This document shows positions 4,591 to 32,143 of a DNA stretch of 32,143 nt, piece by piece. How positions within the stretch are numbered: the stretch's first letter is position 1; the number at the start of each line of letters is the position of its first letter. Under the pieces are notes generated by a model. It did no database searches. It had not been told where the DNA came from and saw only the letters and a program-made list of their open reading frames with translations. Origin of the DNA: an uncultured Bacilli bacterium (GTDB lineage: Bacteria; Bacillota_I; Bacilli_A; RF39; UBA660); assembly GCA_944329195.1 (NCBI GenBank), contig CALVHX010000008.1, forward strand, positions 1 through 32,143, in the 5' to 3' direction. The translations under genes and the position numbers were made by a program.

Positions 4591-5730
4591 TTATACACTG
4601 AGCCGATTTATATCATATTGAAAAGAATAAGTAAAATTTTCGGAACCACATTTTTCGCATTTAAACTTATTAAATTTTCTTGAAATGGATGATATAAATT
4701 CATTTGTTAGTATTTTTGATATAAGTAATTTACATAATCTTATATTATTTTTTTTATTTCTATTCGTTAATATCCCATAATGTTTAATTTTGGTAAAGTT
4801 ATCTGGTAATACATGCATTAAGAATCTTCTTATAAATTCTTCTGCTGTTATTGTCATTTCTTTAATTTTTGAATTGCCTTTGTAATCTTTGTATTCAAAT
4901 GTTACTAATCCATTATTGATATTTTTTATTCTTTTGTTAGATATCGCTACTCTAAAGGAATATCTTCCTACATATTCTATAACATTTTCAGTTTTTCCTT
5001 TTGGTGGTTCGATATAAGTAATCCAAGTTTTGTTATAAAGTGGTTCTAAAAATTTATTAAATGATTTGATATCATTGATATCTTCTTTTAAAGCTAAATT
5101 ATTAAATTCATGTTTTAAATAATATAGAAATTTACCTCTAAATAAAGAACCTAAAACTTGTACTTTAAAAAGATAATCTTTATCACATGATACCCATTTA
5201 TTATTCTTAAGTCCACCACCAGTAACTATTGAATGAATATGAGGGTGAAACTCCATAGTTTGTCCCCATGTATGAAGAATGGAAGTTATACCTACTTTAG
5301 CTCCTAGCCATTTAGGATCTTCGGAAAGTTCTAAAATGGCTTCACTTGTGGCTTTAAATAAAATATTATAAAGTATCTTTTTGTTATACAAAAATATTTT
5401 ATTTAATTCATAAGGAACAGTTGTAATAATATGAAAGTATTTAGTATCTAGTAGATAGCTTGCTTCTTTTTGAATCCATTTTTCTCTGGCATAATTTTGA
5501 CACATAGGACAATGTCTATTCCTACAAGAATTAAAGCCAAAATACTCTTTACCACATTCCTCACATGTACAGATATGATATCCAAGTTCTTTAGTACCAC
5601 AGTTTCTAATTGCATTAAAGACTTTCCATTGTTCATTAGATAACTTATGATTTTTTATGTATTCATCACCATAATTAATAAATATATCTTGAATAGTAAA
5701 CTTAGACATATCTAATACCTTCAAGTTCAT
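4591..5730 (-). CDS. tnpA: IS91-family HUH (Y2) transposase
   Basis: A 379-residue rolling-circle transposase, about the usual length for the family. The N-terminus has a cysteine cluster (C54, C56, C59, C69, C74, C77), a likely zinc-binding site. The core shows F-H-I-I-T-T-V-P near 99-106, the metal-binding H-P-H-I-H at 162-166 (HUH), and two tyrosines Y253 and Y257 in E-Y-V-G-R-Y, the Y-x3-Y pair that nicks and carries the DNA 5' end in IS91. A second C-x2-C pair near the C-terminus (about 355) makes a small ribbon. All key residues are present and the frame is intact. The gene overlaps the upstream recombinase by 29 nt, so the two are translated together. Confidence 0.93.
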   Translation of the reverse strand: MNLKVLDMSKFTIQDIFINYGDEYIKNHKLSNEQWKVFNAIRNCGTKELGYHICTCEECGKEYFGFNSCRNRHCPMCQNYAREKWIQKEASYLLDTKYFHIITTVPYELNKIFLYNKKILYNILFKATSEAILELSEDPKWLGAKVGITSILHTWGQTMEFHPHIHSIVTGGGLKNNKWVSCDKDYLFKVQVLGSLFRGKFLYYLKHEFNNLALKEDINDIKSFNKFLEPLYNKTWITYIEPPKGKTENVIEYVGRYSFRVAISNKRIKNINNGLVTFEYKDYKGNSKIKEMTITAEEFIRRFLMHVLPDNFTKIKHYGILTNRNKKNNIRLCKLLISKILTNEFISSISRKFNKFKCEKCGSENFTYSFQYDINRLSV

Positions 5731-6550
5731 TAAAGTTTTGAGACAAGTGTAAATAAATTGTTGTTGTATTTAAATTTTTATGACCTAGCATAGATTGTAA
5801 TGTTAAAAGTGAACCTCCATTTGAAAGATAATACGTAGCGAATGCATGCCTTAAACTATGAAATGAGATGTTTTCATCTAAATTATGGTTATATTTTAAT
5901 ACAGAAAAATAATTTATTATTGTCTTGGAATTCATTACTTCTTTGTTATTGGTTCCTGGAAAAAGATATCCAGACTTAATGTTTTTTTCTTTACAGTATA
6001 ATCTTAATAGTTTAATAACAATATCTGGAAGAATAGTATATCTTTCTTTATTACCTTTGCCTATAACTCTTAATTTATGTTCTTTTGAATTAATATCTTC
6101 TACTTTAATTCTAGATACTTCATCAACTCTTAAGCCACAACAAAAAGCAAGAATTAACCAACATTTATGTTTTAATATTTTTTCTTCATTAATAATTTGG
6201 ATGAATTTATCTTTTGGCAAAATAGTAGGTAATCTTTTCACTAGTTTAGATGATGGTAATAAAATATGATTTAAACTTTTATTAAAACATATTAGATATA
6301 ATAATCTAACTGAAGCTACTGCAACATTATAAGTATATTTACTTTTGTTATTTTTTAAATAACAATGAGTAAAATAAGGAATAATATTTTCTTCAGATAA
6401 TTGCTCTATACTTGTTGATTCATCAAAAAAGTTAAAGAATCTAATTAAGACAGATTTATAATTAACAAATGTATTTTCACTCCTTCCTCTTAAAATTAAA
6501 TTTTCATGGACTTTATCAATCCATATTTTCTGATTTTGTTCAGTATTCAT
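5702..6550 (-). CDS. Tyrosine recombinase (integrase) of the IS91-like element
   Basis: A 282-residue site-specific tyrosine recombinase. Residues about 10-95 form the SAM-like core-binding domain and 105-275 the catalytic domain. All catalytic positions are visible: R141 (C-G-L-R-V-D-E), K165 (G-K-G-N-K), H231 and R234 (S-F-H-S-L-R-H), H257 (L-G-H-K) and the nucleophile Y266 (I-Y-L-H). It resembles XerC/D-type enzymes in length and motifs. It lies upstream of and overlaps the HUH transposase; pairs like this are known in some IS91-family elements, where the recombinase may resolve intermediates or help integration. Its leader holds the crossing repeats at 6610-6694. Upstream AGAAAGAAGG serves as ribosome-binding site. 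Confidence 0.92.
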   Translation of the reverse strand: MNTEQNQKIWIDKVHENLILRGRSENTFVNYKSVLIRFFNFFDESTSIEQLSEENIIPYFTHCYLKNNKSKYTYNVAVASVRLLYLICFNKSLNHILLPSSKLVKRLPTILPKDKFIQIINEEKILKHKCWLILAFCCGLRVDEVSRIKVEDINSKEHKLRVIGKGNKERYTILPDIVIKLLRLYCKEKNIKSGYLFPGTNNKEVMNSKTIINYFSVLKYNHNLDENISFHSLRHAFATYYLSNGGSLLTLQSMLGHKNLNTTTIYLHLSQNFNELEGIRYV

Positions 6551-11156: not shown

Positions 11157-12551
11157 ATGAAAAAAGAATTAGTAAATATTTTAATTAATAAATTGGAGGG
11201 AACAAATTTACCAATTGATGGTGTAGAATTTGTGCTAAGTAAGGATGAAAAGATACTTAAAAAACTAGCGCCGCTTGATAAAAAAGTATTTAATTCAGCA
11301 ATTGATATTGTTATGTCGTATAAAAATGATCTCGATATTATTACCGCTATTGATTTGTTAACTAATGCACGAGAAGAAGTATTACAATATTTAATTAAAG
11401 CATTAACAAATGCAGACTTAATTGAAAAGGAAAGAGCAATTTATTCTGCCAGAATAATTTATGAATCAAAAAATTGGTATAATGCTTGTTATGTCTATAA
11501 AGCTTTAACTAATAAAAATACAATAAATGCTGGATTAGTACCTGATGCTACTATGATAATTAATCAGTCAAAAACGGAATACAATGCCCGTTATGCATAC
11601 GAAGTATTAACTAACAAAGATGCTTTGGATGCCGGAATAGCACCTATTGGGGCTATGATAGTTAATTTGTCAAAAATGGAATATAATGCCTGCTATGTAT
11701 GCAAAGTCTTAACTGACAAAAACGTAATAGATGCTGGAATAGCCTATGATGGGGCTATGATAATTAATCAGTCCGAAACGAAATATAATGCTCGCTATGC
11801 ATACGAAGTATTAACTAGTAAAAACGCAATAGAAGGTGGAATGCCACTTTTTGGAGCTGGAATAATTAATGATGCTAAAACGGAATATAATGCTTATTAT
11901 GCTTATAAAGTTTTAACTGACGAAAATGCAATAGAAGGGCTAATAGATCTTGAGGCCGCTATGATATTAAGTATGTCAAAAACGGAATATAATGCCCACT
12001 ATGCATACAAGGTTTTAACTAATAGGGGCGCAATAAAAGCTGAAAAAGCTCTTGTCGGTGCCATAATAATTAATGAATCAAAAAATTGGTATAATGCTTA
12101 TTGTGCTTACTTGGTTTTAACTAACAAAGATGCTTTGGATGCCGGAATAGCACCTATTGGGGCTGAAATGCTTAATAAAATACAAAATAGAGATATAGCC
12201 GAATATGTATGTAAAGTTCTAACTAATGAAAATGCGATACGGGAAGGAGCGGTCCTCGAGTATGCTAAAATAATTAGCCGCGCGAAAACTATAGAGATTG
12301 CTTGCTTTATATGTGAATTTTTATTAGGTGAAACGACAGCTGGTTTAGATGAGAAACTTTCTATTGCAACTGAGATTGCTACTTTTGACAGTGCAGATCA
12401 GCTTGCCAAAAAAGGATATATGCTCCTTCTTGATGATCCGGATGCAAGAAGAGAAAAATATTTTGCTGAATTGAAGAAAAAAATGAATGCTCATGGTGAA
12501 GGAGATATCAAAGTAAGAAGCTTGGCAAAAAAGCCTAGTTATGAAAAATAA
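11157..12551 (+). CDS. Protein of tandem 34-residue helical repeats
   Basis: A 464-residue protein with no signal peptide. Residues 1-104 form a helical N-terminal part. From residue 105 to 376 there are eight consecutive repeats of exactly 34 residues, consensus K-T-E-Y-N-A-x-Y-A-Y-x-V-L-T-N-x-x-A-[IL], then x-x-G, then a hydrophobic stretch ending A-x-I-I-N-x-S; a ninth, decayed unit follows. The pattern suggests two helices per unit and an alpha-solenoid used for protein binding, related in style to HEAT or Sel1 repeats but not clearly either. The C-terminus (about 405-464) is charged. It is transcribed away from clpB with its own promoter. I do not recognise a function; a cytoplasmic scaffold is an inference. 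Confidence 0.8.
   Translation: MKKELVNILINKLEGTNLPIDGVEFVLSKDEKILKKLAPLDKKVFNSAIDIVMSYKNDLDIITAIDLLTNAREEVLQYLIKALTNADLIEKERAIYSARIIYESKNWYNACYVYKALTNKNTINAGLVPDATMIINQSKTEYNARYAYEVLTNKDALDAGIAPIGAMIVNLSKMEYNACYVCKVLTDKNVIDAGIAYDGAMIINQSETKYNARYAYEVLTSKNAIEGGMPLFGAGIINDAKTEYNAYYAYKVLTDENAIEGLIDLEAAMILSMSKTEYNAHYAYKVLTNRGAIKAEKALVGAIIINESKNWYNAYCAYLVLTNKDALDAGIAPIGAEMLNKIQNRDIAEYVCKVLTNENAIREGAVLEYAKIISRAKTIEIACFICEFLLGETTAGLDEKLSIATEIATFDSADQLAKKGYMLLLDDPDARREKYFAELKKKMNAHGEGDIKVRSLAKKPSYEK
11469..12284 (+). repeat. Eight tandem 102-bp coding repeats
   Basis: Units of exactly 102 bp encode the 34-residue repeats. Units 2 and 7 share an identical 48-bp block (11607-11654 and 12117-12164), 510 bp or five units apart, while intervening units differ, which points to copying or recombination within the gene. 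Confidence 0.85.
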
Positions 12552-19112: not shown

Positions 19113-19331
19113 ATGGTTAAAAAGTGTAAAAAGTTGGAGGAAATAAAAGCAATGTTTAAAGATATAGAAATAGACTTAAATCAAATAGAAACAAATGAAT
19201 TGCAAAAATTTATGATTATATTTAAAGGTCAAAATGATACAAGAATGCAAGATAAAGTAAAACACTTAATGAGTGATATCATAATAATTTGTTTTTTAGC
19301 AATTCTTGTATTTTTAACTATATTTTTGTAA
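19113..19331 (+). pseudogene. N-terminal fragment of an ISAs1-family transposase
   Basis: A 72-residue frame matching the start of ISAs1-type DDE transposases: a leader, then D-T-R-M-Q-D-K-V-K-H-L-M-S-D-I-I-I-I-C-F, which corresponds to the family's D-x-R-x3-K-x-H-x-L-x-[DE]-I-[IL] region. It stops after L-T-I-F-L, where the family continues into its first catalytic aspartate. The C-terminal piece of what is probably the same gene lies at 19450-19710 in the same orientation, so some 250 central residues are missing and a terminator-like hairpin sits between. It cannot be an active transposase. Confidence 0.7.
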
Positions 19332-19449: not shown

Positions 19450-19710
19450 AAAATCCCTAATTTACATGCACCATTAGATATAGTGTTTAAAGCAGATGCT
19501 AATAGAACATTAGAAAAAAATGGAGCAAAAAATTTGGGAATATTAAAGCGAATTTGTTTAGCTGTTTTAAAGTTTGTACAAACATACTATAATTTGAGTT
19601 TAAATAAGATTAGATTTTTATTGTCTATAGATTTTGAAAAAGAAATAGAAAATGTATTTAAGTTATTAAATACTGATGATATTGCAAAATTATTAGAAAA
19701 AAACACATGA
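19450..19710 (+). pseudogene. C-terminal fragment of an ISAs1-family transposase
   Basis: In-frame remnant reading N-L-H-A-P-L-D-I-V-F-K-A-D-A-N-R-T-L-E-K and onward for about 80 residues to TGA. A TGA at 19447 blocks the frame upstream. From 19458 to 19640 it matches 31961-32143 at the window end with five mismatches in 183 nt, so the two come from the same insertion sequence. The family's final catalytic Glu (in H-W-x-x-E-N) is upstream of the fragment and lost here. Confidence 0.85.
19458..19640 (+). repeat. Direct repeat, left copy (transposase 3' end)
   Basis: Matches 31961-32143 in the same orientation at 178 of 183 positions by my hand alignment; the right copy is cut by the window end, so the repeat may be longer. 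Confidence 0.92.
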
Positions 19711-19753: not shown

Positions 19754-19782
19754 TTTAAAAAGTATAGGTTTTATGGTATTAT
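19754..19782 (+). promoter_or_regulatory. Probable promoter of the Wadjet operon
   Basis: TTTAAA (19754-19759), 17-nt spacer, TATTAT (19777-19782) with an extended TGG just before it. AAGGAG follows at 19790-19795. Confidence 0.5.
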
Positions 19783-19809
19783 ATTAAGCAAGGAGCAGTA
19801 TGGTAATTT

Positions 19810-21273
19810 ATGGAAGTATATGAAAAATTAACGAAACAAATATCTGAGACAAAATACTTAAGTACGGAGAATTCTTATAGATATAGACCAATTATGAGAT
19901 GTTTTTATCAACATTATGAGAAATTAGAATATTGGTTATACAAAGAAGAAGTTTATAACGAATTAAAAGATAATACTATATTTATTAATTATACACTAGA
20001 AGAATGCGAAAGAGATTTAGAGACATTAACGGAGTGGATGAGTCTATCTAAAATGCAAGATACCAAAAATGCTAGTTCTATAGAAGAGTTTAAAAATAAA
20101 AAATTTAGATATCAAATGACAGAATATGCCACAGAAATAGAAAGACTCACGATTGCTTTAGAAGAAATGGAAATAAAAACATCATCATTAGAACCAAAAT
20201 TATTTGATAGATTACGAATTTCTATTGCAAAATTATCAGAACTAGAAAACCTAAATGAAGATGATATAAATGATTTATGGACAGACTTAAATGAAGACTT
20301 CACAAAACTAAATCAAAATTATCAAGATTTTTTAAAGAAATTTAATGAACCAAAATCAGAAGAATTATTACAAAGTGTATTATTTTTAAAGTTTAAAAGT
20401 GAAATATTAAAGTATTTAAGAGAATTTATTAGAGGTTATCAGAAAAATATATATAATATAAAAGATAGTATTTCAAAAATTAGTAATGATGATATAGAAA
20501 TATTTCTAAATAAATTAAATGATCATTATAAAAAAACACCAATCATGAATACTAATTTTAGTTTTGAACACCTAAAAGATGTTAATTTAGGGAAAATTAA
20601 TAATATCTTTAAATGGTTTATTGGTACCAAAACCACATCTAGTGAAGGAGAAAAACTAATGGATACTACAAATAATATTATCGTAAAGATTACTAAGTAT
20701 GCAAATTCATTAGTAGAACTTCGCGGTAATATGACTAATAGAAAAGAAGAATATAAGCATTTATGTAGACTATTTGATAAACTAGATAATATAGATGAAT
20801 GTAATAAATATGCATCCGTTACCTTTGGCATTGGAAATGTTAGACATTTTATAGGTAATTCTAGTTTAGATACAGATTCCATCGTAAATACTTATAATAT
20901 ACCACCAATTGAAATATTACTATCCTCAAGAACCAAGAATAGAAAAGAGAAAATATCAATTCAACCAATTATAGATAAAACTGAAGAAAAAAAGAAAATA
21001 CTAGAGGAATATCGCCTAGAACAAGAAAAAAACAAACAAATATTAAAACATTTAATTAAAGATAAAGAAATTGTACTAAAAGGTGAAATAGAGTTATCCA
21101 AAGTAGAAAGAAGATACATCCAAAAACTAATCGCGAATTCTTCAAATAAAAAAGAAACAGAATTTGGACTTAACTATAATATTGTCAAGAAAGATGGAAA
21201 GTGCCGAATTATAACAGAAGATGGTATTTTCTTAATGGACGCGAAAGTAATAGAGTTTGAAGGTGAAATATAG
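19810..21273 (+). CDS. jetA: Wadjet type II JetA (TIGR02677/DUF2397), kleisin-like subunit
   Basis: A 487-residue protein. Wadjet is an SMC-type anti-plasmid system; JetA is the kleisin (MukF-like) that bridges the JetC heads and binds JetB. The N-terminus Y-L-S-T-E-N-S-Y-R-Y-R-P-I-M-R-C-F-Y (about 17-34) followed by L-x-Y-W-L-Y-K-E-E-V-Y is the hallmark I associate with DUF2397. The middle is helical with coiled-coil character; the C-terminus (about 415-487) looks like a winged helix. The frame is closed by TAA at 19804, so ATG 19810 is the only reasonable start even though the AGGAG lies 14 nt away. It abuts jetB with no gap. Confidence 0.88.
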   Translation: MEVYEKLTKQISETKYLSTENSYRYRPIMRCFYQHYEKLEYWLYKEEVYNELKDNTIFINYTLEECERDLETLTEWMSLSKMQDTKNASSIEEFKNKKFRYQMTEYATEIERLTIALEEMEIKTSSLEPKLFDRLRISIAKLSELENLNEDDINDLWTDLNEDFTKLNQNYQDFLKKFNEPKSEELLQSVLFLKFKSEILKYLREFIRGYQKNIYNIKDSISKISNDDIEIFLNKLNDHYKKTPIMNTNFSFEHLKDVNLGKINNIFKWFIGTKTTSSEGEKLMDTTNNIIVKITKYANSLVELRGNMTNRKEEYKHLCRLFDKLDNIDECNKYASVTFGIGNVRHFIGNSSLDTDSIVNTYNIPPIEILLSSRTKNRKEKISIQPIIDKTEEKKKILEEYRLEQEKNKQILKHLIKDKEIVLKGEIELSKVERRYIQKLIANSSNKKETEFGLNYNIVKKDGKCRIITEDGIFLMDAKVIEFEGEI

Positions 21274-22455
21274 ATGGATATTTATACAAAAGAATTAGAA
21301 TATTTACTAAATAATTATTGGTGTGTTAAAGAACAAAATCCTAAGATTTACTTTAATATAAAGAATAATTTAGATTATTATAGAGAGTTTATAAGAGATA
21401 AATTAGGAAGCAAATTAATTGTTAATGATAGATTTATAAAATTAGAAAAAATCCCTGCTTCTCCTAAATCTTATATGGGAATTATAGATTTTGATGACAA
21501 ACTAGAATATACTATATTATTCATCATTCTCTTATTTTTAGAAGATAAACCTAAATTAGAACAATTTATCTTATCTAATTTAATAGAATTTATCTCAAAT
21601 ACCGCTACTACATTAGAATTAGATACTATTCCTAATTGGAATATATTACACCATAGAAAATGCTTAGTAACTGTTATTAATCACTTAAAAGAATTAAATA
21701 TTATTAGAGTAGTAGAAGAAAATAATTTATTTACAGAAGATTCTAAGGCAGAAGCATTATATGAAACAACAGGATTATCTAACTATTATGTTAGAGAATT
21801 TAAAAATAATATTTTAGAATACAGAAATATAGATGATTATATTAATGATGAATTCAACGAACAAAATGAAAATATTGGAGATGTTAGAAGATATAAAGTA
21901 TATAGACATCTATTATATTCATTAGTCACATATACCGAGGATTTAACAGAGTATGAGTTAGATTACTTAAAAAGATTTAGAAGTAATATTAATAATGAAC
22001 TATCTAAATATACTAAAGGAGAATTAGAATTAACAAATAATATGGCTGTTGTTATGTTTGAAAGTGATGCAGGAGAGAAATTTGACTTTCCTAATAATAA
22101 AGCCATATCTGATATTGTTTTACTTGTAAATAATGCAATCTTAAAAGAACAAGAAAATGATAAGTTAAAACTAGAAAAAGATGAAACAATTATAATTACT
22201 AAAGAGAATTTACAAAGAATACTTAAAGAAATAAGACTTGAAAATGGAAAGTACTTTAGTAAAAAATATCGAGAAATGCCCACTAAGAACTTTATTGATG
22301 AAGTGATTCTTTACTTAAAAGAATACGATTTTATTAGAGACTATGAATTAGGATATAAAATATATCCTATGATATCTAGATTAATTGGTTATATTCCAAA
22401 AGATACTGAAGAACAATTAGAATTATTTGGAGGTGAGACAGATGAAGAGAATTAA
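21274..22455 (+). CDS. jetB: Wadjet type II JetB (TIGR02678/DUF2398), KITE-like subunit
   Basis: A 393-residue protein matching DUF2398 by its start L-E-Y-L-L-N-N-Y-W-x-x-K-E-x-x-P, the R-E-F-I-R-D-K-L-G block (about 36-44), K-L-E-K-I-P, and the hydrophobic L-F-L-E-D-K segment. In the complex it is the MukE-like winged-helix protein that dimerises on the kleisin and contacts DNA. The ATG follows the jetA stop directly (TAGATG), with GAAGGTGAAA inside the end of jetA as ribosome-binding site. It overlaps jetC by 14 nt. Together this gives tight translational coupling, as expected for subunits of one complex. Confidence 0.88.
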   Translation: MDIYTKELEYLLNNYWCVKEQNPKIYFNIKNNLDYYREFIRDKLGSKLIVNDRFIKLEKIPASPKSYMGIIDFDDKLEYTILFIILLFLEDKPKLEQFILSNLIEFISNTATTLELDTIPNWNILHHRKCLVTVINHLKELNIIRVVEENNLFTEDSKAEALYETTGLSNYYVREFKNNILEYRNIDDYINDEFNEQNENIGDVRRYKVYRHLLYSLVTYTEDLTEYELDYLKRFRSNINNELSKYTKGELELTNNMAVVMFESDAGEKFDFPNNKAISDIVLLVNNAILKEQENDKLKLEKDETIIITKENLQRILKEIRLENGKYFSKKYREMPTKNFIDEVILYLKEYDFIRDYELGYKIYPMISRLIGYIPKDTEEQLELFGGETDEEN

Positions 22456-25400
22456 AATAACAAAGATCGGATTACTTAATTTTTGGCTATATGATGAAGA
22501 AGAATATGATTTTTATGGTGGAAATTTAATATTAAGAGGAACCAATGGTAGTGGCAAATCAGTCACAATGCAGTCTTTTATACCACTTATATTAGATGGA
22601 AACAAAAGCCCAGACAGATTAGATCCATTCGGTTCTAAGGAAAGAAAAATAGAAGATTACATTATAGGAGACGCAGAAGGAGTCCAAAAAGAAGAAGCAA
22701 CCTCTTATCTATATATGGAAACACTAACAGAAGAAGAAAATAAATATATTACAATTGGCTTAGGCTTTAGAGGCAGAAAAGGTAAAGGTGTTGAATCTTG
22801 GGGATTTGCTTTAAAAGATGGTAAAAGAATTGGTAAAGATTTCTTCTTGTACAAAGACCCAGTCAATAAGATTCCCTTGTCTAAAAATGAATTAAAATCA
22901 AGATTGGGTACAATTAATGAGTTTGTAGACACAACTAAAGATTATAAAGCAATGGTAAATAGACTATTATTTGGATTCCCTAATTTAGATATTTATGATG
23001 AGTTTATTAAATTATTATTACAATTAAGAAGTAATAAATTATCTAAAGATTATAAACCTACTAATTTAGTTAATGTTTTAAATACAGTATTACAACCCCT
23101 AACTGAAGATGATCTAAGACCATTATCAGAAGCCATAGAACAAATGAATAAAACCAAAGAGCAAGTTGAAACACTAGAACATAATGTTAAACAACTAAAA
23201 GATTTCTTAAAAGTATATAGAAATTATAATGAAATAATATTAGTTACAAAGGCTAGAGAATATCAAAAAGCAAATAACGAATATAACGAACTAAAAAATA
23301 ACACCTCTAATTTAGAAAAAGAACTTATAAATTTTAAGAAAAAACTAGAAGAAAATAATAATCGTTATACAATTGTATTAAATGATATTGCAACTAATGA
23401 AGAACAAAAAAGACAACTAGATAACCAAGACTTAAAACAAAAAATAGAATCCCTAACAACAATTAATGAAACAATTACCACTTTAGAAGGAAAAATTAAA
23501 GATATCTCTAATAATATTGATAATAATGAACAAGAAAAATTAGAGTTAAATAAAAAAATAAGTCAAATTGCTGATGAAACATATAAATTAAAAAAAGAAA
23601 TAGAAGAATCTTCTATTGATTTAAAAGATATGTCCAACGAAAGTTACTTTGATGAAATTATTTTCTTTATAGATGAACTAAATGATAATTTAGAAACTGA
23701 AGTATCCTTTGAAAGCATTTTTATGTCCTTAAAAAAATATGAAGAAAAGATTAAAATTATGATTAACTTTTTAGAACAAGAACAACAAATATTACTGGAA
23801 AGCGAATCAACTAGAATAGAATATGAAAAATTATCTAATAAATATAAAGAATTAGAAAGATTAATTAATAATCAAGAAAAAAATTTCAAAGAAAGCATTA
23901 TGGCTTGGGAAGAAGACTTCATTAATAAATTAAATAATAATAAATATCTAAAACTAGATGATAGTATAAAAAAACAAATATTAGAACTTATGAATAACTA
24001 TTCTTTTAATAATTACGATAAAGTTAAATCTTTATATAAAGATGCATCTTCAAATTTAATAAACAATATCAATAACAATACCTTAAAATTAGATAATAAA
24101 AAATCCCTAAGAGAGATAGAATTATCAAAGTTAGAAAACGAATATCAAGAATTAAAAAATTCTGATGATATAGAACTCCCTACTTTAAATATAAAGACTG
24201 ATGAAATTTTAAAAAATAATGAAATAGACAGTATACCTTTATATAAATGTATCGAGTTTAAAGATAACATAAGTGATAAAATCAGAAATAACATTGAAGC
24301 ATCTCTATTAGACTTAAATATATTAGGTGCTTATATTATAAAAGAAAGTGATATAGATAAACTATCTAAATTAGATATACAAATACTATATTTAACCAAA
24401 ACAAATAAAAAACAAAATAATATACTTAAATATTTTGATATCAAAATAGATAGCAATACTATTAAAGCAGATTATGTTAAAGAAGTATTAGAATGTATCA
24501 GTATAGATAAAAAAGATATTATCTCAATAGGTGAGGATGGTAAATCTCACATTGATTTAATAAATTCCATTGCAAACCCAGAATATAAGCAAAGTTATAT
24601 CGGATACTTAAAAAGAATTGAACTCAAAAATAAAAAACTAAAAGAATTAGAAAATAGAGTAGAAATATTAAACAAAGAAATACAAATTATTGATAATCTA
24701 ATAAGAGAAAATAATGAAAAAATTACTATTATAGAAAGTGAAGAAAAAAATTTACCTAGTAATGAAATAATAAATAATATTATAGATAAAATAAAAGAAC
24801 TTTCAATAGAACTTAATTACAATGATAAAAGACAAAAAGAATTAGAAAAAGATTTATCTATTATTGATGACAAGTTAAAAAAAATTAAAGAAAAAATAAA
24901 TGATAATAAAAAAGGCTTATATATACCACTAAATTTAATTTCATATAAAGAAGTTAGTAATATTGTTAGTAGTATTAAAGAAATATTACAAAATCTAAGA
25001 AATACCCATAATTCTTATTTAAACAAGTTAGAAATAAATAATAGTTTTCAAGATAGATTAAATAGTATTATGGATAATATTGCTTATTTAAAAGCAGATC
25101 TAGAAGAAAAAGAAACTAACTTAAAAGTTAATATAACCGCTAGAGACACAATTAACGAACTATTAGAAACAAAAGAATATAAAGAACAAAAAGAAAAAAT
25201 GATAACTATAGAAACTAATTTAACTAATCTAGAAAAAGAAAGAGTTTTATTAATAAAAGAAACATCTAAATTAGAGAAAGATATTGAATATAAGAATAAT
25301 TACTTTAACGAGTTACAAAAAGAAATGTTAGAAAAACAAAAAAAATTAAATATTTATAGAGAAATTTTCTTAAGAGAATATAAATTAAAATATATTTATC

Positions 25401-26521
25401 AAGACGATATAGTTGATTTAGATAAAACAGTTAGGAACATAATTAAAGATGGAAATTCAAGAAAAGAAATATCTCTAAATGAAGCATTAAGTAACTTTTA
25501 TTCATCATACAATCATTATAGATTAGAACTTAATGACTATTCTTTGAAAAACATAACATTATTTGCAGATTATGATACAGAAGATAATGAAGAAAAAAAG
25601 ATATATGAAAATAACATAAGAGTAGATGTAGTATCTATGTATCAAGGAATTAAACTTAATTTATTAGAGCTAGCAGAAAAATTAGAAGGAGATATTGAAG
25701 ATAATAAAGATTTAATTAGTAAGCAAGATAGACTTTTATTTGAGGATATTTTATTAAATACAGTAGGAGATAAAATCAGAGCAAGAATAGATTCATCAAA
25801 TGAATGGGTTTCTAAGATAAATAATATTATGGCTACAATGCAAGGGAATAGCGCTCTTAGCTTTAAACTAGTTTGGAAAAGCATCGCTGCCGATAATGAA
25901 GGAGAAATCGATACCAAAGAATTAGTACGCATATTAAAAATGGATCCAAAGTTACTTAAAGATAGTGATAGATCAAGACTAACGAATCATTTTAGAAGCA
26001 AAATAAAAAAAGCAGAAGAATTGTGTCAAGATTCATTTATATCATTTTATAAAATTATAGAAGAAGTCTTAGATTATAGAAGCTGGTTTACTTTTCAATT
26101 ATTATATCAACGAAAAGGCATGAATTTCAAAGAATTAACTGATAAAACATTTTCTAAATTTAGTGGTGGTGAGCGCGCCAAGAGTATGTATATACCTCTA
26201 TTTGCTAGTGTTTATGCAAAATTAATTTTGGCACGTCCTAATTGCCTTAGAATAATTGCTTTAGATGAAGCGTTTGCTGGAGTAGACGAAGATAATATTA
26301 GAGAAATGTTTGGTATCCTAAAATATTTGAATATTGATTTTATAATTAATTCCCAAGTATTATGGGGAGATTATGATACAATTGATGATTTATCTATCTG
26401 TGAACTTATTAGACCTCAAAATTCTTCAGTTGTAAGTGTTGAAAGATATAGATGGAATGGTAAATATAAAGAAATTATTGATGATAGATTAAAGTATAAT
26501 GAGGAATTAAAAAATGCATAA
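22442..26521 (+). CDS. jetC: Wadjet type II JetC (TIGR02680), SMC-like ATPase
   Basis: A 1359-residue SMC/MukB-like motor that extrudes DNA loops. Walker A G-T-N-G-S-G-K-S is at 33-40, the ABC signature F-S-G-G-E-R near 1240-1245, and Walker B I-I-A-L-D-E with D1275-E1276. Between them lie two long coiled coils rich in Lys, Glu and Asn, broken by a less charged hinge-like region about 600-720. This is the full SMC order: N-head, coil, hinge, coil, C-head. I use the ATG at 22442, six nt after GGAGGTGA; the TTG at 22427 would put the ribosome-binding site inside the gene. Coding sequence is strongly A-rich with more C than G, unlike the core genes. Confidence 0.93.
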   Translation: MKRIKITKIGLLNFWLYDEEEYDFYGGNLILRGTNGSGKSVTMQSFIPLILDGNKSPDRLDPFGSKERKIEDYIIGDAEGVQKEEATSYLYMETLTEEENKYITIGLGFRGRKGKGVESWGFALKDGKRIGKDFFLYKDPVNKIPLSKNELKSRLGTINEFVDTTKDYKAMVNRLLFGFPNLDIYDEFIKLLLQLRSNKLSKDYKPTNLVNVLNTVLQPLTEDDLRPLSEAIEQMNKTKEQVETLEHNVKQLKDFLKVYRNYNEIILVTKAREYQKANNEYNELKNNTSNLEKELINFKKKLEENNNRYTIVLNDIATNEEQKRQLDNQDLKQKIESLTTINETITTLEGKIKDISNNIDNNEQEKLELNKKISQIADETYKLKKEIEESSIDLKDMSNESYFDEIIFFIDELNDNLETEVSFESIFMSLKKYEEKIKIMINFLEQEQQILLESESTRIEYEKLSNKYKELERLINNQEKNFKESIMAWEEDFINKLNNNKYLKLDDSIKKQILELMNNYSFNNYDKVKSLYKDASSNLINNINNNTLKLDNKKSLREIELSKLENEYQELKNSDDIELPTLNIKTDEILKNNEIDSIPLYKCIEFKDNISDKIRNNIEASLLDLNILGAYIIKESDIDKLSKLDIQILYLTKTNKKQNNILKYFDIKIDSNTIKADYVKEVLECISIDKKDIISIGEDGKSHIDLINSIANPEYKQSYIGYLKRIELKNKKLKELENRVEILNKEIQIIDNLIRENNEKITIIESEEKNLPSNEIINNIIDKIKELSIELNYNDKRQKELEKDLSIIDDKLKKIKEKINDNKKGLYIPLNLISYKEVSNIVSSIKEILQNLRNTHNSYLNKLEINNSFQDRLNSIMDNIAYLKADLEEKETNLKVNITARDTINELLETKEYKEQKEKMITIETNLTNLEKERVLLIKETSKLEKDIEYKNNYFNELQKEMLEKQKKLNIYREIFLREYKLKYIYQDDIVDLDKTVRNIIKDGNSRKEISLNEALSNFYSSYNHYRLELNDYSLKNITLFADYDTEDNEEKKIYENNIRVDVVSMYQGIKLNLLELAEKLEGDIEDNKDLISKQDRLLFEDILLNTVGDKIRARIDSSNEWVSKINNIMATMQGNSALSFKLVWKSIAADNEGEIDTKELVRILKMDPKLLKDSDRSRLTNHFRSKIKKAEELCQDSFISFYKIIEEVLDYRSWFTFQLLYQRKGMNFKELTDKTFSKFSGGERAKSMYIPLFASVYAKLILARPNCLRIIALDEAFAGVDEDNIREMFGILKYLNIDFIINSQVLWGDYDTIDDLSICELIRPQNSSVVSVERYRWNGKYKEIIDDRLKYNEELKNA

Positions 26522-27758
26522 ATATACAGAATATTTTAAAGAAAGCCCTGGATTCAACAGATTTATTAAGAAAATATATGATAAATATAAATCACTAGGA
26601 AGATTTTCAGGTAAAGTTAAATTAAAAAATTTATCTCAAGAGGAGGCTAAGAGTTTATCAAGATTATTTGGAATTACATATAAAACTGGAGATGACGAAA
26701 CTTTTTCAATAAGTAAGTTTATTTCAATTATGAAAAATTCTAAGTATGATGACTTTGATATTGGAGTATTAATACAAGAATATTTAAATGTAGAATTATA
26801 TACTAACAAAGAAAAAAATAATCAAAATATAATCAAAGAACAAGAATTTTACAAAGATATTATACAAGATAATTCTAAAGGAAGTTCTTGGTTACAAGAT
26901 ATAATTAATTTTAAAAAACCTCCCTATAGATTAATTCATCAAAGATATAATAAGAATAAAATAGCTTTAAAAAAAGAATTAATAAATATAATTTCATTAA
27001 TAGATAATTTACCAACAACAAAAGTATTATTACCCATATATGCTTCTAATTATACAAAAGACCCACATTACTTAGATTTAGATAATTTTCATAACATTCT
27101 TTATTTCTATGCACTTTCTTATATAGATAATTGTAGTTATCCTGAAAGTAGAGAAGAGAAAATAAAACTATTATCTAAGTATAATATCGAAATAGATAAT
27201 TTATCTAATTATGTATTGACTTATAATTTATTATCAAGTAAAAATTATATAAATCAATTTTCAAATAACAAAGAAACACTAATATTAAATATTCAAAACA
27301 TTATTACTACAGAATGGTTTGATACAAAAGCAAAGAAGGTATTTATTTTTGAAAATCCATCTATTTTATCAGAGATAATAATGAGAACTATAGATTGTAG
27401 TGTAATTATTTCAGGAGGATTTCCTAATACTAGTGTATATTTACTTTTAGATAAATTAATTGAAAGTGGCAACAAACTATATTATAACGGAGATTTTGAT
27501 CCAGAAGGACTACTTATTGCCGGTAGATTAAAAGAGAAGTATAAAGATAAAATGAATTTATTTTGTTATAATGCTGATGATTACAATAAATGTTTATCAA
27601 AAAAGGAAATATCTGATAAAAGATTAAGTAAACTAATTAAAATAGATATTAAAGAATTAAAAGATATAATTAGTTTATTAACTTTAAATAAATTAGCAGC
27701 GTATCAAGAGAATAATAAAGAAAGAATAATTGATTATATAAATAATAGTTATGAGTAA
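26514..27758 (+). CDS. jetD: Wadjet type II JetD (TIGR02679/DUF2399), TOPRIM nuclease
   Basis: A 414-residue protein. JetD cleaves the plasmid once the SMC complex has extruded the whole circle. The C-terminal TOPRIM part carries E280 in F-I-F-E-N-P-S, G-G-F-P-N-T (about 303-308) and the metal-binding D327-F-D329-P-E-G. The N-terminal half (1-270) is a helical arm region that differs between types. DUF2399 and this gene order (JetA-B-C-D with DUF2397 and DUF2398) set type II apart from type I. All nuclease residues are present. It overlaps jetC by 8 nt (GAATTAAAAAATGCATAA) and is the last gene of the operon. Confidence 0.9.
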   Translation: MHKYTEYFKESPGFNRFIKKIYDKYKSLGRFSGKVKLKNLSQEEAKSLSRLFGITYKTGDDETFSISKFISIMKNSKYDDFDIGVLIQEYLNVELYTNKEKNNQNIIKEQEFYKDIIQDNSKGSSWLQDIINFKKPPYRLIHQRYNKNKIALKKELINIISLIDNLPTTKVLLPIYASNYTKDPHYLDLDNFHNILYFYALSYIDNCSYPESREEKIKLLSKYNIEIDNLSNYVLTYNLLSSKNYINQFSNNKETLILNIQNIITTEWFDTKAKKVFIFENPSILSEIIMRTIDCSVIISGGFPNTSVYLLLDKLIESGNKLYYNGDFDPEGLLIAGRLKEKYKDKMNLFCYNADDYNKCLSKKEISDKRLSKLIKIDIKELKDIISLLTLNKLAAYQENNKERIIDYINNSYE

Positions 27759-27920: not shown

Positions 27921-28241
27921 ATGAATAATGATTTAAGAGCACTCACAGGTGTAGTAATTGACCCAGGACATGGTGGGAGTGATCCGGGTGCTGTTGGAAA
28001 TAATAATTATGGAAAAGATTATGCCTTAAAAATTTCTCAATATATGTATGATATATTTAATGAATTAGGTATACCAGTAACTTTAACTAGAGATAGTGAT
28101 ATTACATTATCGCCAACCGAGAGAATAAATAAAATACTATCAGCATACGGGAATGCCCCTGATGTAATAGTTATATCTAATCACTTGAATGCAGGAGGTC
28201 GGGTAAGAAAAATTGTGATGGATGAAATATATGGTGTATAA
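27921..28241 (+). pseudogene. Truncated N-acetylmuramoyl-L-alanine amidase (Amidase_3)
   Basis: A 106-residue frame matching the first half of zinc amidases that cut the stem peptide from murein. Present: V-V-I-D-P-G-H-G-G-S-D-P-G (first zinc His, about residue 19), T-R-D-S-D near 61, and I-S-N-H-L-N-A-G-G (second His, about 91). The zinc Glu that usually stands in an E-K-D-x-x-L block is Gly here (Y-G-K-D-Y-A-L), and the protein ends 13 residues after the N-A-G-G, lacking the catalytic Glu. Full members have about 175 residues or more. It is best read as a remnant, perhaps from a phage or island lysin. A weak AAGGTAAT precedes the ATG. Confidence 0.75.
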
Positions 28242-28333
28242 CTTCGTAAGTTACTTGAAATATATAATAATATCACCTGGAAATTTTTTTGATTTATATG
28301 TAAGACAAGTTTATGGTAAAATAACCTGGTTAT

Positions 28334-28432: not shown

Positions 28433-29086
28433 ATGAATTATAATGATATTTTAATTAAATATATTGATGAATATCCATATGATGAGCCTATTTTTATTGA
28501 GGACATCAAAGATTATTTTAAAAATTATATTAAAAATAATTTTGATGATGTATTTAAAAATGTTTATGTATATATTAATAGACTAGTGAAAGATAATAAA
28601 CTTGTTCAATTTATTAAAGGAATTTATTATAAACCTTTAAAAGGGGTATTTGGTAATAAACTTTTAAATATTAATAAAGTTATTGATAAAAAATATATAC
28701 ATGATGGAACTAGACAAAAGGGATATTTAACAGGTGCTTATTTATTTAATAAAATAGGTTTAACTACGCAAATACCAAAAGAAATTTTAATTGTTACTAA
28801 TGAGTGCCCTAATGCAAATGATTACAATAATAAAAATTTAGGTGTTACTATTAGAAGACCTAAAATTGAAATTAATGATGATAATTATAAATATCTTCAG
28901 CTTTTTGATGTGTTAATTAATAAGGATAATATAAAAATTGAAGTTGATAATGAAAAAGAAATTATTTATCAATTTATTAAAGATAATGAGTTAGAGCTTG
29001 AAAAAATTTTTGAATATGCTAATAAAATAAATAATTTTAAACCAATAAAGAGATTATACGAATTAGGAGGTGAAAATATTGAATAA
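28433..29086 (+). CDS. abiEi: AbiEi-type antitoxin (type IV toxin-antitoxin)
   Basis: A 217-residue protein. The N-terminal 65 residues form a winged helix of the AbiEi_4/DUF6088 sort: paired helices with Y-V-Y-I-N-R-L-V-K-D-N-K-L-V-Q-F-I-K-G-I-Y-Y, followed by a G-Y-L-T-G-A-Y-L-F-N-K-I-G-L-T-T block at about 98-113 found in these antitoxins. AbiEi counters the toxin without binding it stably and represses the operon. A strong AGGAGGG site precedes the ATG. It overlaps the toxin gene by eight nt, the usual antitoxin-first order. Confidence 0.85.
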   Translation: MNYNDILIKYIDEYPYDEPIFIEDIKDYFKNYIKNNFDDVFKNVYVYINRLVKDNKLVQFIKGIYYKPLKGVFGNKLLNINKVIDKKYIHDGTRQKGYLTGAYLFNKIGLTTQIPKEILIVTNECPNANDYNNKNLGVTIRRPKIEINDDNYKYLQLFDVLINKDNIKIEVDNEKEIIYQFIKDNELELEKIFEYANKINNFKPIKRLYELGGENIE

Positions 29087-30008
29087 AGAAATATTAGAAG
29101 AATTAATATTAAATGTTAATAGTAGAACTGGTATTAGGAATGATATTTTAGAGAAAGACTATTATGTTTGTCTTGTTTTAAGAGAATTAGCATCTAAGCA
29201 AAATGAATTACAGGCTTATTTTAAAGGTGGGACCGCTGTTTATAAAATATTAGATCATATGAATAGATTTTCTGAAGATATTGATTTAACAGTTAAAGTG
29301 AACGAAAATGAATCAAATAATAGTAATAAAACAAGATTAAAAAAATCTGCACTTGGATATGATATTGATGGTTTAATATTAGTAGATGATGAAACAATAG
29401 ATAAAAAAGGTAGTATTACATCGTTTTATAAATATGATTCATTATTTAGTTTAAATGAGCTTTTTAAATCAGAAAGAATTCAGATAGAATCAACTTCATT
29501 TACTGTGTCTGAACCAGTTTCAACTTATACTATTGAACCACTTGTTTATAAGTATGCAACAGAAGAAGAAAAAAATATTTTGAAGGAAAAGTATAATATA
29601 TCTGAATTTGAAATAGAAATTATTAAATTTGAAAGAATCTTTATTGACAAAATATTTGCGGCAGAATTTTATTATGAAAGAAAAATGTATGAAGATGTTT
29701 CTAAACATTTATATGATATTTCTATTATGATAAAAAATGATAATATTAAAGAATTATTAAAAAATAAATCTGAATTAAATAAATTAATAGGTTATAAAAG
29801 AAAAGAAGAAAAATCTAGAATAGGTGGAATATCTGAAGAAAAAGATATAATTGATTTTGATTATATGAAGTTAGATTTTAATGATGATTTAATTAAGGCT
29901 TTTAATAAAATGCAAAGAATATATGTTATAGATAATGAAAGTATAATAACTATTGATGATGTTAAGGATACTGTTAAAATATTATTAGATGTATTTAGAA
30001 ATTTGTAG
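29079..30008 (+). CDS. abiEii: AbiEii-type nucleotidyltransferase toxin
   Basis: A 309-residue toxin of the AbiEii/AbiGii family, which adds nucleotides to RNA (tRNA in studied cases) and stops growth or causes phage abortion. The nucleotidyltransferase core is clear: F-K-G-G-T-A-V-Y-K near 48-56 followed by R-F-S-E-D-I-D-L-T near 65-73, the GG-T and D-x-D pair. The helical C-terminal half has Y-K-Y-A-T-E-E-E and I-E-I-I-K-F-E-R-I-F-I-D-K, as in relatives. I prefer the TTG at 29079, eight nt after GGAGG, over the GTG at 29070 that lies within that site. The frame is intact, so the toxin is probably functional. Confidence 0.88.
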   Translation: MNKEILEELILNVNSRTGIRNDILEKDYYVCLVLRELASKQNELQAYFKGGTAVYKILDHMNRFSEDIDLTVKVNENESNNSNKTRLKKSALGYDIDGLILVDDETIDKKGSITSFYKYDSLFSLNELFKSERIQIESTSFTVSEPVSTYTIEPLVYKYATEEEKNILKEKYNISEFEIEIIKFERIFIDKIFAAEFYYERKMYEDVSKHLYDISIMIKNDNIKELLKNKSELNKLIGYKRKEEKSRIGGISEEKDIIDFDYMKLDFNDDLIKAFNKMQRIYVIDNESIITIDDVKDTVKILLDVFRNL

Positions 30009-30025: not shown

Positions 30026-30265
30026 ATGGAAAAAAATATTCTTGAATTAACATTATTGCTTATGTATTTAACTTCTTAGGAAGAAGAACCAAATCCTTTT
30101 GAAGATAGGTTTAAACAATGCTGGAAAGGTTATTCTTTCGATGCTATCAATGAATTAACTGATAAAGGTTATTTATTTCCATCGAAATATAAAAATAAAT
30201 CAGTTACATTAACTAAAGAAGGAGAAAAATTAGCTAAGGATTTAATTGAAAAATATTTGAAGTAG
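30026..30265 (+). pseudogene. DUF6429-like gene with an in-frame TAG
   Basis: Starting at ATG 30026 (AAAGGTGG upstream) the frame reads M-E-K-N-I-L-E-L-T-L-L-L-M-Y-L-T-S, then TAG at 30077-30079, then E-E-E-P and continues open for 61 codons with W-K-G-Y-S-F-D-A-I-N-E-L-T-D-K-G-Y, V-T-L-T-K-E-G and A-K-D-L-I-E-K-Y. This is the DUF6429 pattern, a small winged-helix-like protein; relatives, from memory, carry Trp (L-T-S-W) at the stop position, so one G-to-A change (TGG to TAG) explains it. The rest of the gene is preserved, so the mutation is recent, or read-through occurs. First in a set of closely spaced genes. Confidence 0.72.
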
Positions 30266-30273
30266 GTGTTAAG

Positions 30274-30699
30274 ATGTTTGATTACGATAAAAAAGTAGAA
30301 GAAAATAGAAAAAGAAATGAAAAATATATTAAAGAATTTGAAAAGTGGTTAAATGAAAAGAGTTTAGTGAAGAAAACTATACGAAAACATTTAAATAATA
30401 TTGATTTATACATTAACGATTATCTAAATTATTATGAAATTACTAAAGTAGAAGATGGTATGAGTTCAGTTTACTCATTTTTAGATGGTTGGTTTATAGA
30501 AAAATGTTTATGGGCTTCAAAAAATTCATTAAAAGAAACTGCATCTAGTATAAAAAAATTTTATCAATATATGAGTGAAAATAATTATGTTAGTGAAAAA
30601 GATTATAAAGATATGTGTAGCTTTATCAAAGAAAATATGGAAGAATTTTTAGAACAAGTTGATGCCTACGATAACGGAACTTATTATGATATATTTTAA
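30274..30699 (+). CDS. Integrase-N-domain-like (SAM-like) protein
   Basis: A 141-residue protein without a catalytic domain. Residues 15-105 resemble the core-binding (SAM-like) domain of tyrosine recombinases: an F-x-x-W-L start, V-K-K-T-I-R-K-H-L-N-N-I-D-x-Y-I-N-D-Y-L near 36-55, and a S-S-I-K-K-F-Y-Q-Y-M near 89-98. The rest is an acidic tail. It follows the DUF6429-like gene after eight nt and precedes the pRiA4b-like gene by 19 nt. A DNA-binding or accessory role is plausible, but I do not know a function. Confidence 0.65.
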   Translation: MFDYDKKVEENRKRNEKYIKEFEKWLNEKSLVKKTIRKHLNNIDLYINDYLNYYEITKVEDGMSSVYSFLDGWFIEKCLWASKNSLKETASSIKKFYQYMSENNYVSEKDYKDMCSFIKENMEEFLEQVDAYDNGTYYDIF

Positions 30700-30718: not shown

Positions 30719-31315
30719 ATGACAAAGGTATTAACATTCAAAGTAGGTATTGAGGGCTTAGAAGATAAGATATGGAGAAAAATAGAAATTACTGATAGAA
30801 GAACAGTTGCTGACTTAGCATATACTATTCTTGCTACATTTGATTCACTTGCATATCATTTATACAATATAAAGTATAATAACAAAGTATATGATTGCTT
30901 CGTTTGTATAGAAGATGATTATAGTGATATTCCTAAAATAAATGCAACCATTACTAAATTGAGTGATTTAGGATTAAAAGAAAGTAATACTATGGAAATG
31001 GAATATGATTATGGTTCACCTACAACTTTTAAAATTACTTATCTAGGTTGTTCTGCTTTAGAAAGAGGCAAAGGATCACATTATCCATATGTTATTGATG
31101 GAGAGGGAAGAGGTATGCTAGATGATATGAGTGACTTTAGACTTAAAGAAGTAGTAGAAGATATTGATAAAAAGGGTTATTCAGAACACTATTTCACACC
31201 AGGATATGAAAGAACAATCAAATATGATTATAGAAAATTTAATATAAAAAATAATAATACATTATTAAAGGGATTAGTTCTAGAAATTAAAAACGGATAT
31301 GAAGTTGGTGAATAA
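30719..31315 (+). CDS. Plasmid pRiA4b ORF-3-like / IS1096 TnpR-passenger family protein
   Basis: A 198-residue protein of the PF07929 type. Its start, L-x-F-K-V-x-[IL]-E-G-L-E-D-K-I-W-R-K-I-E-I, then T-V-A-D-L-A-Y-T-I-L-A-T-F-D, H-L-Y-N-I and the later M-E-Y-D-Y-G-S-P-T-T-F-K-I match the family's W-R-x-[IL]-x-[IV] and Y-x-Y-D-x-G-D-x-W blocks. The family occurs on plasmids and insertion sequences as a passenger gene; its biochemical role is not settled. GGAGGT sits 7 nt before the ATG. Its end overlaps the next frame by eight nt. Confidence 0.82.
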   Translation: MTKVLTFKVGIEGLEDKIWRKIEITDRRTVADLAYTILATFDSLAYHLYNIKYNNKVYDCFVCIEDDYSDIPKINATITKLSDLGLKESNTMEMEYDYGSPTTFKITYLGCSALERGKGSHYPYVIDGEGRGMLDDMSDFRLKEVVEDIDKKGYSEHYFTPGYERTIKYDYRKFNIKNNNTLLKGLVLEIKNGYEVGE

Positions 31316-32143
31316 AATTGAAATAATTAATATATATGGAAGTATAGATAATTTTCGAGAAATATTTCCAAATTATTATAACAGATTTACTGAGAAAGAA
31401 GAAATCATGATAGATAGTATTAGCAAAGAAAACGATAATTTTATAATGGTGGTCTCTCCAATTTTTTCAGCTTCTATTATTGAAAATATATTATTTACTA
31501 ATTATCTATCGATTGATACACTAGAATCTATTTATAATAGATTAATTATTGAAGAGGATAATACTTTGGACTATAAAGAGACGGTTTCAGCAATCAAAGA
31601 AGCACATGGAGATTATGTCTTAGCATTAAAGAAAAATCAGAAAACATTTTATGATGATGTAAAAGATTACTTAGTTGATTTGGGTATATTAAAAGAGATA
31701 GAAAAAGAAAATTACGCTGAATATATTGAAAAATCACATAGCAAAATCATAACAAGAAAATATTATATGACAAGTAAAATATCATGGTTAGAAAATAAAG
31801 AAAAATGGGAAAAATTAAAATCTATAGGAGTTGAGAAAAAAACAATTGAATCAATACAGACAGGTAAAGTAATTGAAGAAAATAGATACTTTATAATTAG
31901 TTTCAAAGATGATATACATTCATTTGCAGACGCAGTAAGAAAACATTGGGGAGTAGAAAATAATTTACATGCACCATTAGATATAGTGTTTAAAGAAGAT
32001 GCTAATAGAACATTAGAAAAAAATGGAGCAAAAAATTTGGGAATATTAAAGCGAATTTGTTTAGCAGTTTTAAAGTTTGTACAAACATATTATAATTTGA
32101 GTTTAAATAAAATTAGATTTTTATTATCTATAGATTTTGAAAA
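31308..32143 (+). CDS. Chimeric frame: unknown N-terminus fused to ISAs1-family transposase C-terminus (runs off the window)
   Basis: An open frame from GTG 31308 to the window end (278 codons, no stop). Residues 1 to about 88 match nothing I know. From about residue 89 it is ISAs1-type: K-E-T-V-S-A-I-K-E-A-H-G-D-Y-V-L-A-L-K-K (family: x-Q-x-x-x-A-x-x-I-x-x-x-G-G-D-Y-[VL]-L-A-L-K-x-N-Q), and later R-K-H-W-G-V-E-N-N-L-H, which holds the last catalytic Glu. The first two catalytic aspartates are missing, so this is a 5'-truncated transposase joined in frame near 31570. It overlaps the pRiA4b-like gene by eight nt and could be translated by coupling. Possibly a pseudogene. Confidence 0.65.
   Translation, partial: MNKIEIINIYGSIDNFREIFPNYYNRFTEKEEIMIDSISKENDNFIMVVSPIFSASIIENILFTNYLSIDTLESIYNRLIIEEDNTLDYKETVSAIKEAHGDYVLALKKNQKTFYDDVKDYLVDLGILKEIEKENYAEYIEKSHSKIITRKYYMTSKISWLENKEKWEKLKSIGVEKKTIESIQTGKVIEENRYFIISFKDDIHSFADAVRKHWGVENNLHAPLDIVFKEDANRTLEKNGAKNLGILKRICLAVLKFVQTYYNLSLNKIRFLLSIDFE
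31961..32143 (+). repeat. Direct repeat, right copy (transposase 3' end)
   Basis: Same orientation as 19458-19640 with five mismatches in 183 nt. Together they enclose the Wadjet, AbiE and pRiA4b cassettes. Confidence 0.92.

Follow-up and report, generated by a model that had tools for sequence, protein, structure and literature searches.

The region at positions 19810 to 27758 of the window, which is the whole analyzed stretch of DNA of 32,143 nucleotides, contains four uninterrupted, coupled, and co-oriented genes in the order jetA-jetB-jetC-jetD. The sequence, the conserved catalytic residues, and the predicted fold support its assignment as a complete type II Wadjet operon. With a probability of about 0.92, we consider that the product of the operon is a working type II Wadjet complex and that the adjoining AbiE genes are the cargo of a separate serine-integrase element in an amidase-LysM gene. 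Judged from its sequence, the operon is an ordinary, divergent, and intact further example of an already known system.

All four genes are on the forward strand. jetA (19810 to 21273) encodes a kleisin-like subunit of 487 aa (DUF2397/TIGR02677), and jetB (21274 to 22455) encodes a KITE-like subunit of 393 aa (DUF2398/TIGR02678). jetC (22442 to 26521) encodes an SMC ATPase (TIGR02680) of 1359 aa when read from the ATG at 22442 or 1364 aa when read from the TTG at 22427. The ATG, which follows GGAGGTGA, is probably the better start, the TTG being poor. jetD (26514 to 27758) encodes a nuclease of 414 aa with DUF3323 and DUF2399 (TOPRIM) domains. The gap between jetA and jetB is 0 bp, and jetC and jetD overlap by 8 bp, in keeping with the four coupled genes in canonical order described in the original prediction. 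Upstream of jetA, also on the forward strand, there is a candidate -10 element of the extended form, TATGGTATTAT (19772 to 19782), and a candidate ribosome-binding site, AAGGAG (19790 to 19795). The pattern TATGnTATnAT followed by an AAGAGGA-like site recurs 5' of jetA in most relatives, as judged by eye, and positions 19772 to 19795 are the probable -10 region and ribosome-binding site of jetA.

JetA, JetB, and JetC scored above the NCBIfam cut-offs of TIGR02677 (234.9 bits; cut-off, 165.85), TIGR02678 (125.5 bits; cut-off, 124.65, barely passed), and TIGR02680 (660.8 bits; cut-off, 462.85), respectively. The profile check proposed in the original prediction thus gave the anticipated result for three proteins and not for JetD, whose TIGR02679 score of 118.7 bits is under the cut-off of 196. 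We attribute this miss to the limits of the equivalog model and do not take the cut-off as defining the family, since the PADLOC JetD2 match, the domains, the residues, and the operon context are all concordant. The Pfam thresholds were passed for DUF2397 (JetA, 7.6e-107), DUF2398 (JetB, 6.2e-73), SbcC_Walker_B, DUF3323, and DUF2399. JetA and JetB therefore do not belong to some other family, and JetD does contain the DUF2399 domain, both as foreseen. The top PADLOC matches were JetA2, JetB2, JetC2, and JetD2 (JetD2, 3.2e-114). Among solved structures, JetA, JetB, and JetC matched the chains so labelled in entries 9qe0 and 9qe1 over nearly their full lengths, with E values against 9qe0 of 1e-54, 4e-48, and 7.5e-177, respectively. 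From PMC12647877, which cites the structure, these entries appear to represent the Neobacillus vireti type II complex. JetC also showed a weak match to SMC_prok_B. The E values of the Jet matches, 1e-34 to 1e-198, exclude chance as their explanation.

The JetC Walker A (GTNGSGKS), signature (FSGGERAK), and Walker B (IIALDEAFAGVD) motifs are intact and conserved among 18 homologues. In JetD, the predicted TOPRIM residues E280 (codon at 27351 to 27353), D327 (27492 to 27494), and D329 (27498 to 27500), all on the forward strand, are found at the positions originally given and are invariant in 23 of 23 homologues. A search among solved sequences found no JetD relative from a type II system, and a fold comparison was therefore used. 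The AlphaFold model of JetD (mean pLDDT, 91; pTM, 0.49) was matched by Foldseek to Topo VI-A, the Corynebacterium glutamicum nuclease 8b7f, Pseudomonas aeruginosa JetD (7til), and Spo11, with E values of ~1e-5 to 1e-4 and low whole-length TM-scores near 0.33. The predicted fold thus matches the JetD/MksG/Topo VI-A/Spo11 type. Because NCBIfam, Pfam, and PADLOC agree, and given the JetD domains, residues, and fold together with the JetC motifs, the system was filed as type II Wadjet. The earlier claim of a complete and intact operon is consequently upheld, with four open frames and type II families for all four proteins.

The window is the entire contig C8 (32143 bases) of the draft genome G000, which comprises 59 contigs and 1,117,455 bases in total. 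The close relatives are metagenome-assembled genomes of uncultured Bacilli, Tenericutes, and Candidatus Faecisoma, and the host is a small-genome, uncultured gut-type Bacilli bacterium. The contig carries the core genes for RRF, PheS with a T-box leader, PheT, and YqfD, and its yqfD region has 74% DNA identity to a same-genus genome, which indicates that the contig is chromosomal. A search for a shared insertion site after yqfD did not reveal an empty site: seven family genomes gave no PhoH match over its cut-off, and beyond yqfD the contig of the same-genus genome comes to an end. Elsewhere in the window, positions 11157 to 12551 encode a 464-aa protein that contains tandem repeats of 102 nt (34 aa) and matches no Pfam family, and at 4591 to 6550 an IS91-type Y2 transposase adjoins a tyrosine recombinase 5' of tRNA-Val.

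Wadjet is rare in the family: of 145 genomes, 7 had a TIGR02680 match over the cut-off, including that of the window, and the same-genus genome G140 had no such match. JetC of the window is ~62% identical to its counterparts in G062 and G077 and ~38 to 40% identical to those in G028, G041, and G054; that of G073 is more distant. PheS identities to the window are 61% (G028), 59% (G077), and 55% (G041). Since these pairwise JetC and PheS identities do not track each other, the Jet genes have probably moved horizontally too.

By analogy with relatives, JetA (kleisin), JetB (KITE), and JetC (SMC ATPase) would assemble into a dimeric motor for the extrusion of small DNA circles. Upon full extrusion of a closed circle, the JetD TOPRIM nuclease would cut, and small plasmids would be lost while the chromosome would be spared. 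Nothing in the window sequence argues against this mode of action. In Wadjet, the plasmid is extruded by the dimeric JetABC motor and then cut by JetD (PMC12647877), and the same source describes cleavage of naked circular DNA by the N. vireti type II complex. That system (nvJET; Roisne-Hamelin et al. 2025, cited in PMC12647877) is like that of the window in gene order, families, and motifs. The window operon differs in its divergent sequence, with JetD under the TIGR02679 cut-off, and in its host, a member of the uncultured Bacilli whose genome measures ~1.1 Mb. According to PMC12287153, jetABCD of Clostridium cellulovorans blocks the entry of conjugative plasmids, and deletion of the native operon increased conjugation about 1e5-fold. 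That operon, likened here by description only, is native, chromosomal, and from Bacillota, as is the one in the window.

Downstream of jetD, on the forward strand, lies the 5' half of a cell-wall Amidase_3-LysM gene (27921 to 28199), in which the match stops after NHLNAGG (Asn-Ala-Gly-Gly codons). In place of the EKD of most relatives it reads GKD, a change that we take as loss of a glutamate ligand of zinc and as an indication of decay. The next segment (28200 to 28330, forward strand) is putatively where a serine-integrase element has its left end (attL side); within it, positions 28210 to 28263 aligned with the left end of the element in genome G015, with a local score of 62 against a maximum of 30 in 300 shuffles. 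A second amidase 5' half with the same cut codons is located in the same genome (G000:C6:42017-42256; L073), ~590 bases before its contig ends. Compared with this copy, the left end in the window gave a 12-nt match only, not above shuffles. The amidase is cut at the same point at locus L017 of G077 and a few codons later at L024. In G077, the amidase 3' half is found 11.3 kb further along the same contig (G077:C4). The insert encodes a Fic-type protein, type I restriction-modification genes, a retron RT-protease, and, at its right end, a large serine recombinase with Resolvase, Recombinase, and zinc-ribbon domains.

An amidase-domain search of the 145 family genomes yielded many half-matches ending at residues 93 to 101 or starting at ~82 to 96. 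At least one half of a cut copy was present in at least 49 genomes and both halves in at least 25; these tallies among the matches listed are lower bounds, and a few of the halves lie at contig ends. Both halves are on one contig in G077 and 12 other genomes, at distances of 3.2 to 17.1 kb, and in all 13 pairs the DNA between the halves encodes a homologous large serine recombinase. When joined, 12 of the 13 pairs read in frame as amidase-LysM with no stop at the join, and the thirteenth (G083) failed only the motif criterion of the scripted joining. The 79 cargo proteins include recurrent methylases, type I restriction subunits, Fic proteins, and MutH- and McrBC-like proteins, suggesting that the cargo consists largely of defence genes. 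Taken at the level of sequence, this amidase-LysM codon position is a family-wide serine-recombinase integration hotspot. The split gene with both halves and a recombinase between them is seen in relatives, and the window shows the left half only. The contig ends at 32143 in a transposase remnant, leaving just the left part of the element visible, and we were not able to find an amidase 3' half in the genome of the window. That genome does encode a large serine recombinase that is 39 to 41% identical to those of the amidase elements (G000:C21:3855-5402; L136), with no amidase half in the 10 kb read around it.

The AbiE pair follows on the forward strand. abiEi (28433 to 29086) encodes an AbiE antitoxin-type protein of 217 aa (PADLOC AbiEi, 6.6e-44), and abiEii (29070 to 30008) encodes the AbiEii nucleotidyltransferase toxin of 312 aa (Pfam AbiEii, 1e-19; PADLOC, 1.1e-98). 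The overlapping AbiEi/AbiEii gene pair is as in the AbiE type IV toxin-antitoxin system; the difference is that in the window the pair rides on a serine-integrase element inserted in the amidase. In G041, a genome of another genus, the AbiEi and AbiEii encoded at this same site are 97% and 92% identical to those in the window, and the order is amidase 5' half, AbiEi, AbiEii, and, further on, a serine recombinase. At the DNA level, the AbiE block of the two genomes is nearly identical, whereas the adjoining amidase part is far more divergent. As the same two genomes share 55% identity in PheS and ~39% in JetC, the AbiE genes would have arrived separately. The original prediction had placed the operon beside other defence genes. 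Such genes do adjoin it, but by these comparisons the AbiE pair is cargo of a separately acquired serine-integrase element directly 3' of jetD and not part of a common Wadjet island. A small frame at 30036 to 30266, which we take to be DUF6429-like, has an in-frame TAG where the G041 copy has TGG. It is followed by genes for a stand-alone integrase SAM-like domain protein of 141 aa (30274 to 30699), which also adjoins jetD at locus L014, and a PRiA4_ORF3 protein (30719 to 31315). A segment 86% identical to these two genes lies 5' of an intact amidase in the same genome (G000:C20; L074).

An amidase is found within ~1 kb of Jet in 5 of ~18 usable loci (the window, L017, L024, L022, and L025/L033). 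Over the background rates considered, a rough binomial calculation yields values from 2e-7 to 2e-4, with related loci that are not independent. At L022 and L025/L033, full-length amidase genes flank jetABCD on both sides. Carriage of Jet as cargo of the amidase elements was rejected: Jet lies outside the inserts, and none of the 13 complete inserts contains it. Just 5' of jetA, a 255-bp 3' remnant of a DDE transposase gene (19456 to 19710, forward strand) is 97% identical to a longer, 5'-truncated remnant of the same gene at the right end (31575 to 32143, forward strand; Pfam DDE_Tnp_1), inside which the contig ends. A small frame at 19114 to 19331 resembles the N terminus of the same transposase, which suggests that the left copy is internally deleted.

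These remnants raise the question of whether Wadjet and AbiE constitute a single composite island of defence genes mobilized jointly by the flanking transposase copies, which are in direct orientation, 97% identical over 183 nt, and bracket a segment of ~12 kb. We consider this quite unlikely: jetD is separated from abiEi by the amidase 5' half, whose cut lies at the serine-integrase hotspot, and the histories of AbiE and Jet are discordant. Moreover, each of the two transposase copies is truncated and the genome yielded no intact one, for which reason a composite-transposon origin was rejected as the main account.

The operon could also be intact in sequence yet inactive or unexpressed. JetD and JetB are divergent, and the neighbours are decaying, as seen in the cut amidase, the interrupted small frame at 30036 to 30266, and the transposase remnants; however, four frames remain open across ~8 kb with catalytic motifs kept across relatives, which makes inactivity unlikely. 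Highly improbable is a role mainly as a MksBEF/MukBEF-like chromosome organizer, with JetD acting in DNA repair instead of plasmid defence. JetC is an SMC relative, as its weak SMC_prok_B match indicates, and the modelled JetD fold also resembles those of Topo VI-A and Spo11, but the top matches are to Wadjet type II throughout, and the presence of JetC in so few family genomes, with none over the cut-off in the same-genus genome, argues that the system is dispensable. A functional type II Wadjet complex next to an independently acquired AbiE element is therefore the preferred reading.

The amidase elements resemble gene-intervening elements such as gin and skin, their excision being putative. 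The gin element in Bacillus cereus gerE is a non-phage serine-recombinase element with restriction-modification genes, and its excision during sporulation restores gerE (PMC5595907); skin in sigK and SPbeta in spsM are related gene-splitting cases (PMC5025042, PMC4191935). In all of these, as in the amidase elements, a host gene is split by a serine-recombinase element, and gin shares with them a non-phage nature and the carriage of restriction-modification genes. The amidase elements differ in their target, amidase-LysM, in their size of 3 to 17 kb, in their occurrence in many genera of one uncultured family, and in that excision is putative. Spo0A was present in 15 of 16 genomes checked, so that a link to sporulation is possible by analogy. 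We tentatively raise the rather doubtful idea that this small-genome, Spo0A-bearing Bacilli family hosts a large clade of defence-carrying, gin-like serine-integrase elements dedicated to one amidase-LysM codon position and developmentally excised to restore the amidase, with Wadjet recurrently docked beside the gene. In the literature, of which our coverage was incomplete, no element of this type with an amidase target was found described.

The Wadjet operon adds one divergent, intact type II example from an uncultured lineage. Its genomic context is more useful than the operon itself and sets apart two defence systems that would be merged if the locus were read as a defence island. The amidase hotspot, with cargo that appears to consist largely of defence genes, offers a ready place to seek new defence systems in this family, and it makes reconstitution of the gene by excision testable in long-read metagenomes.
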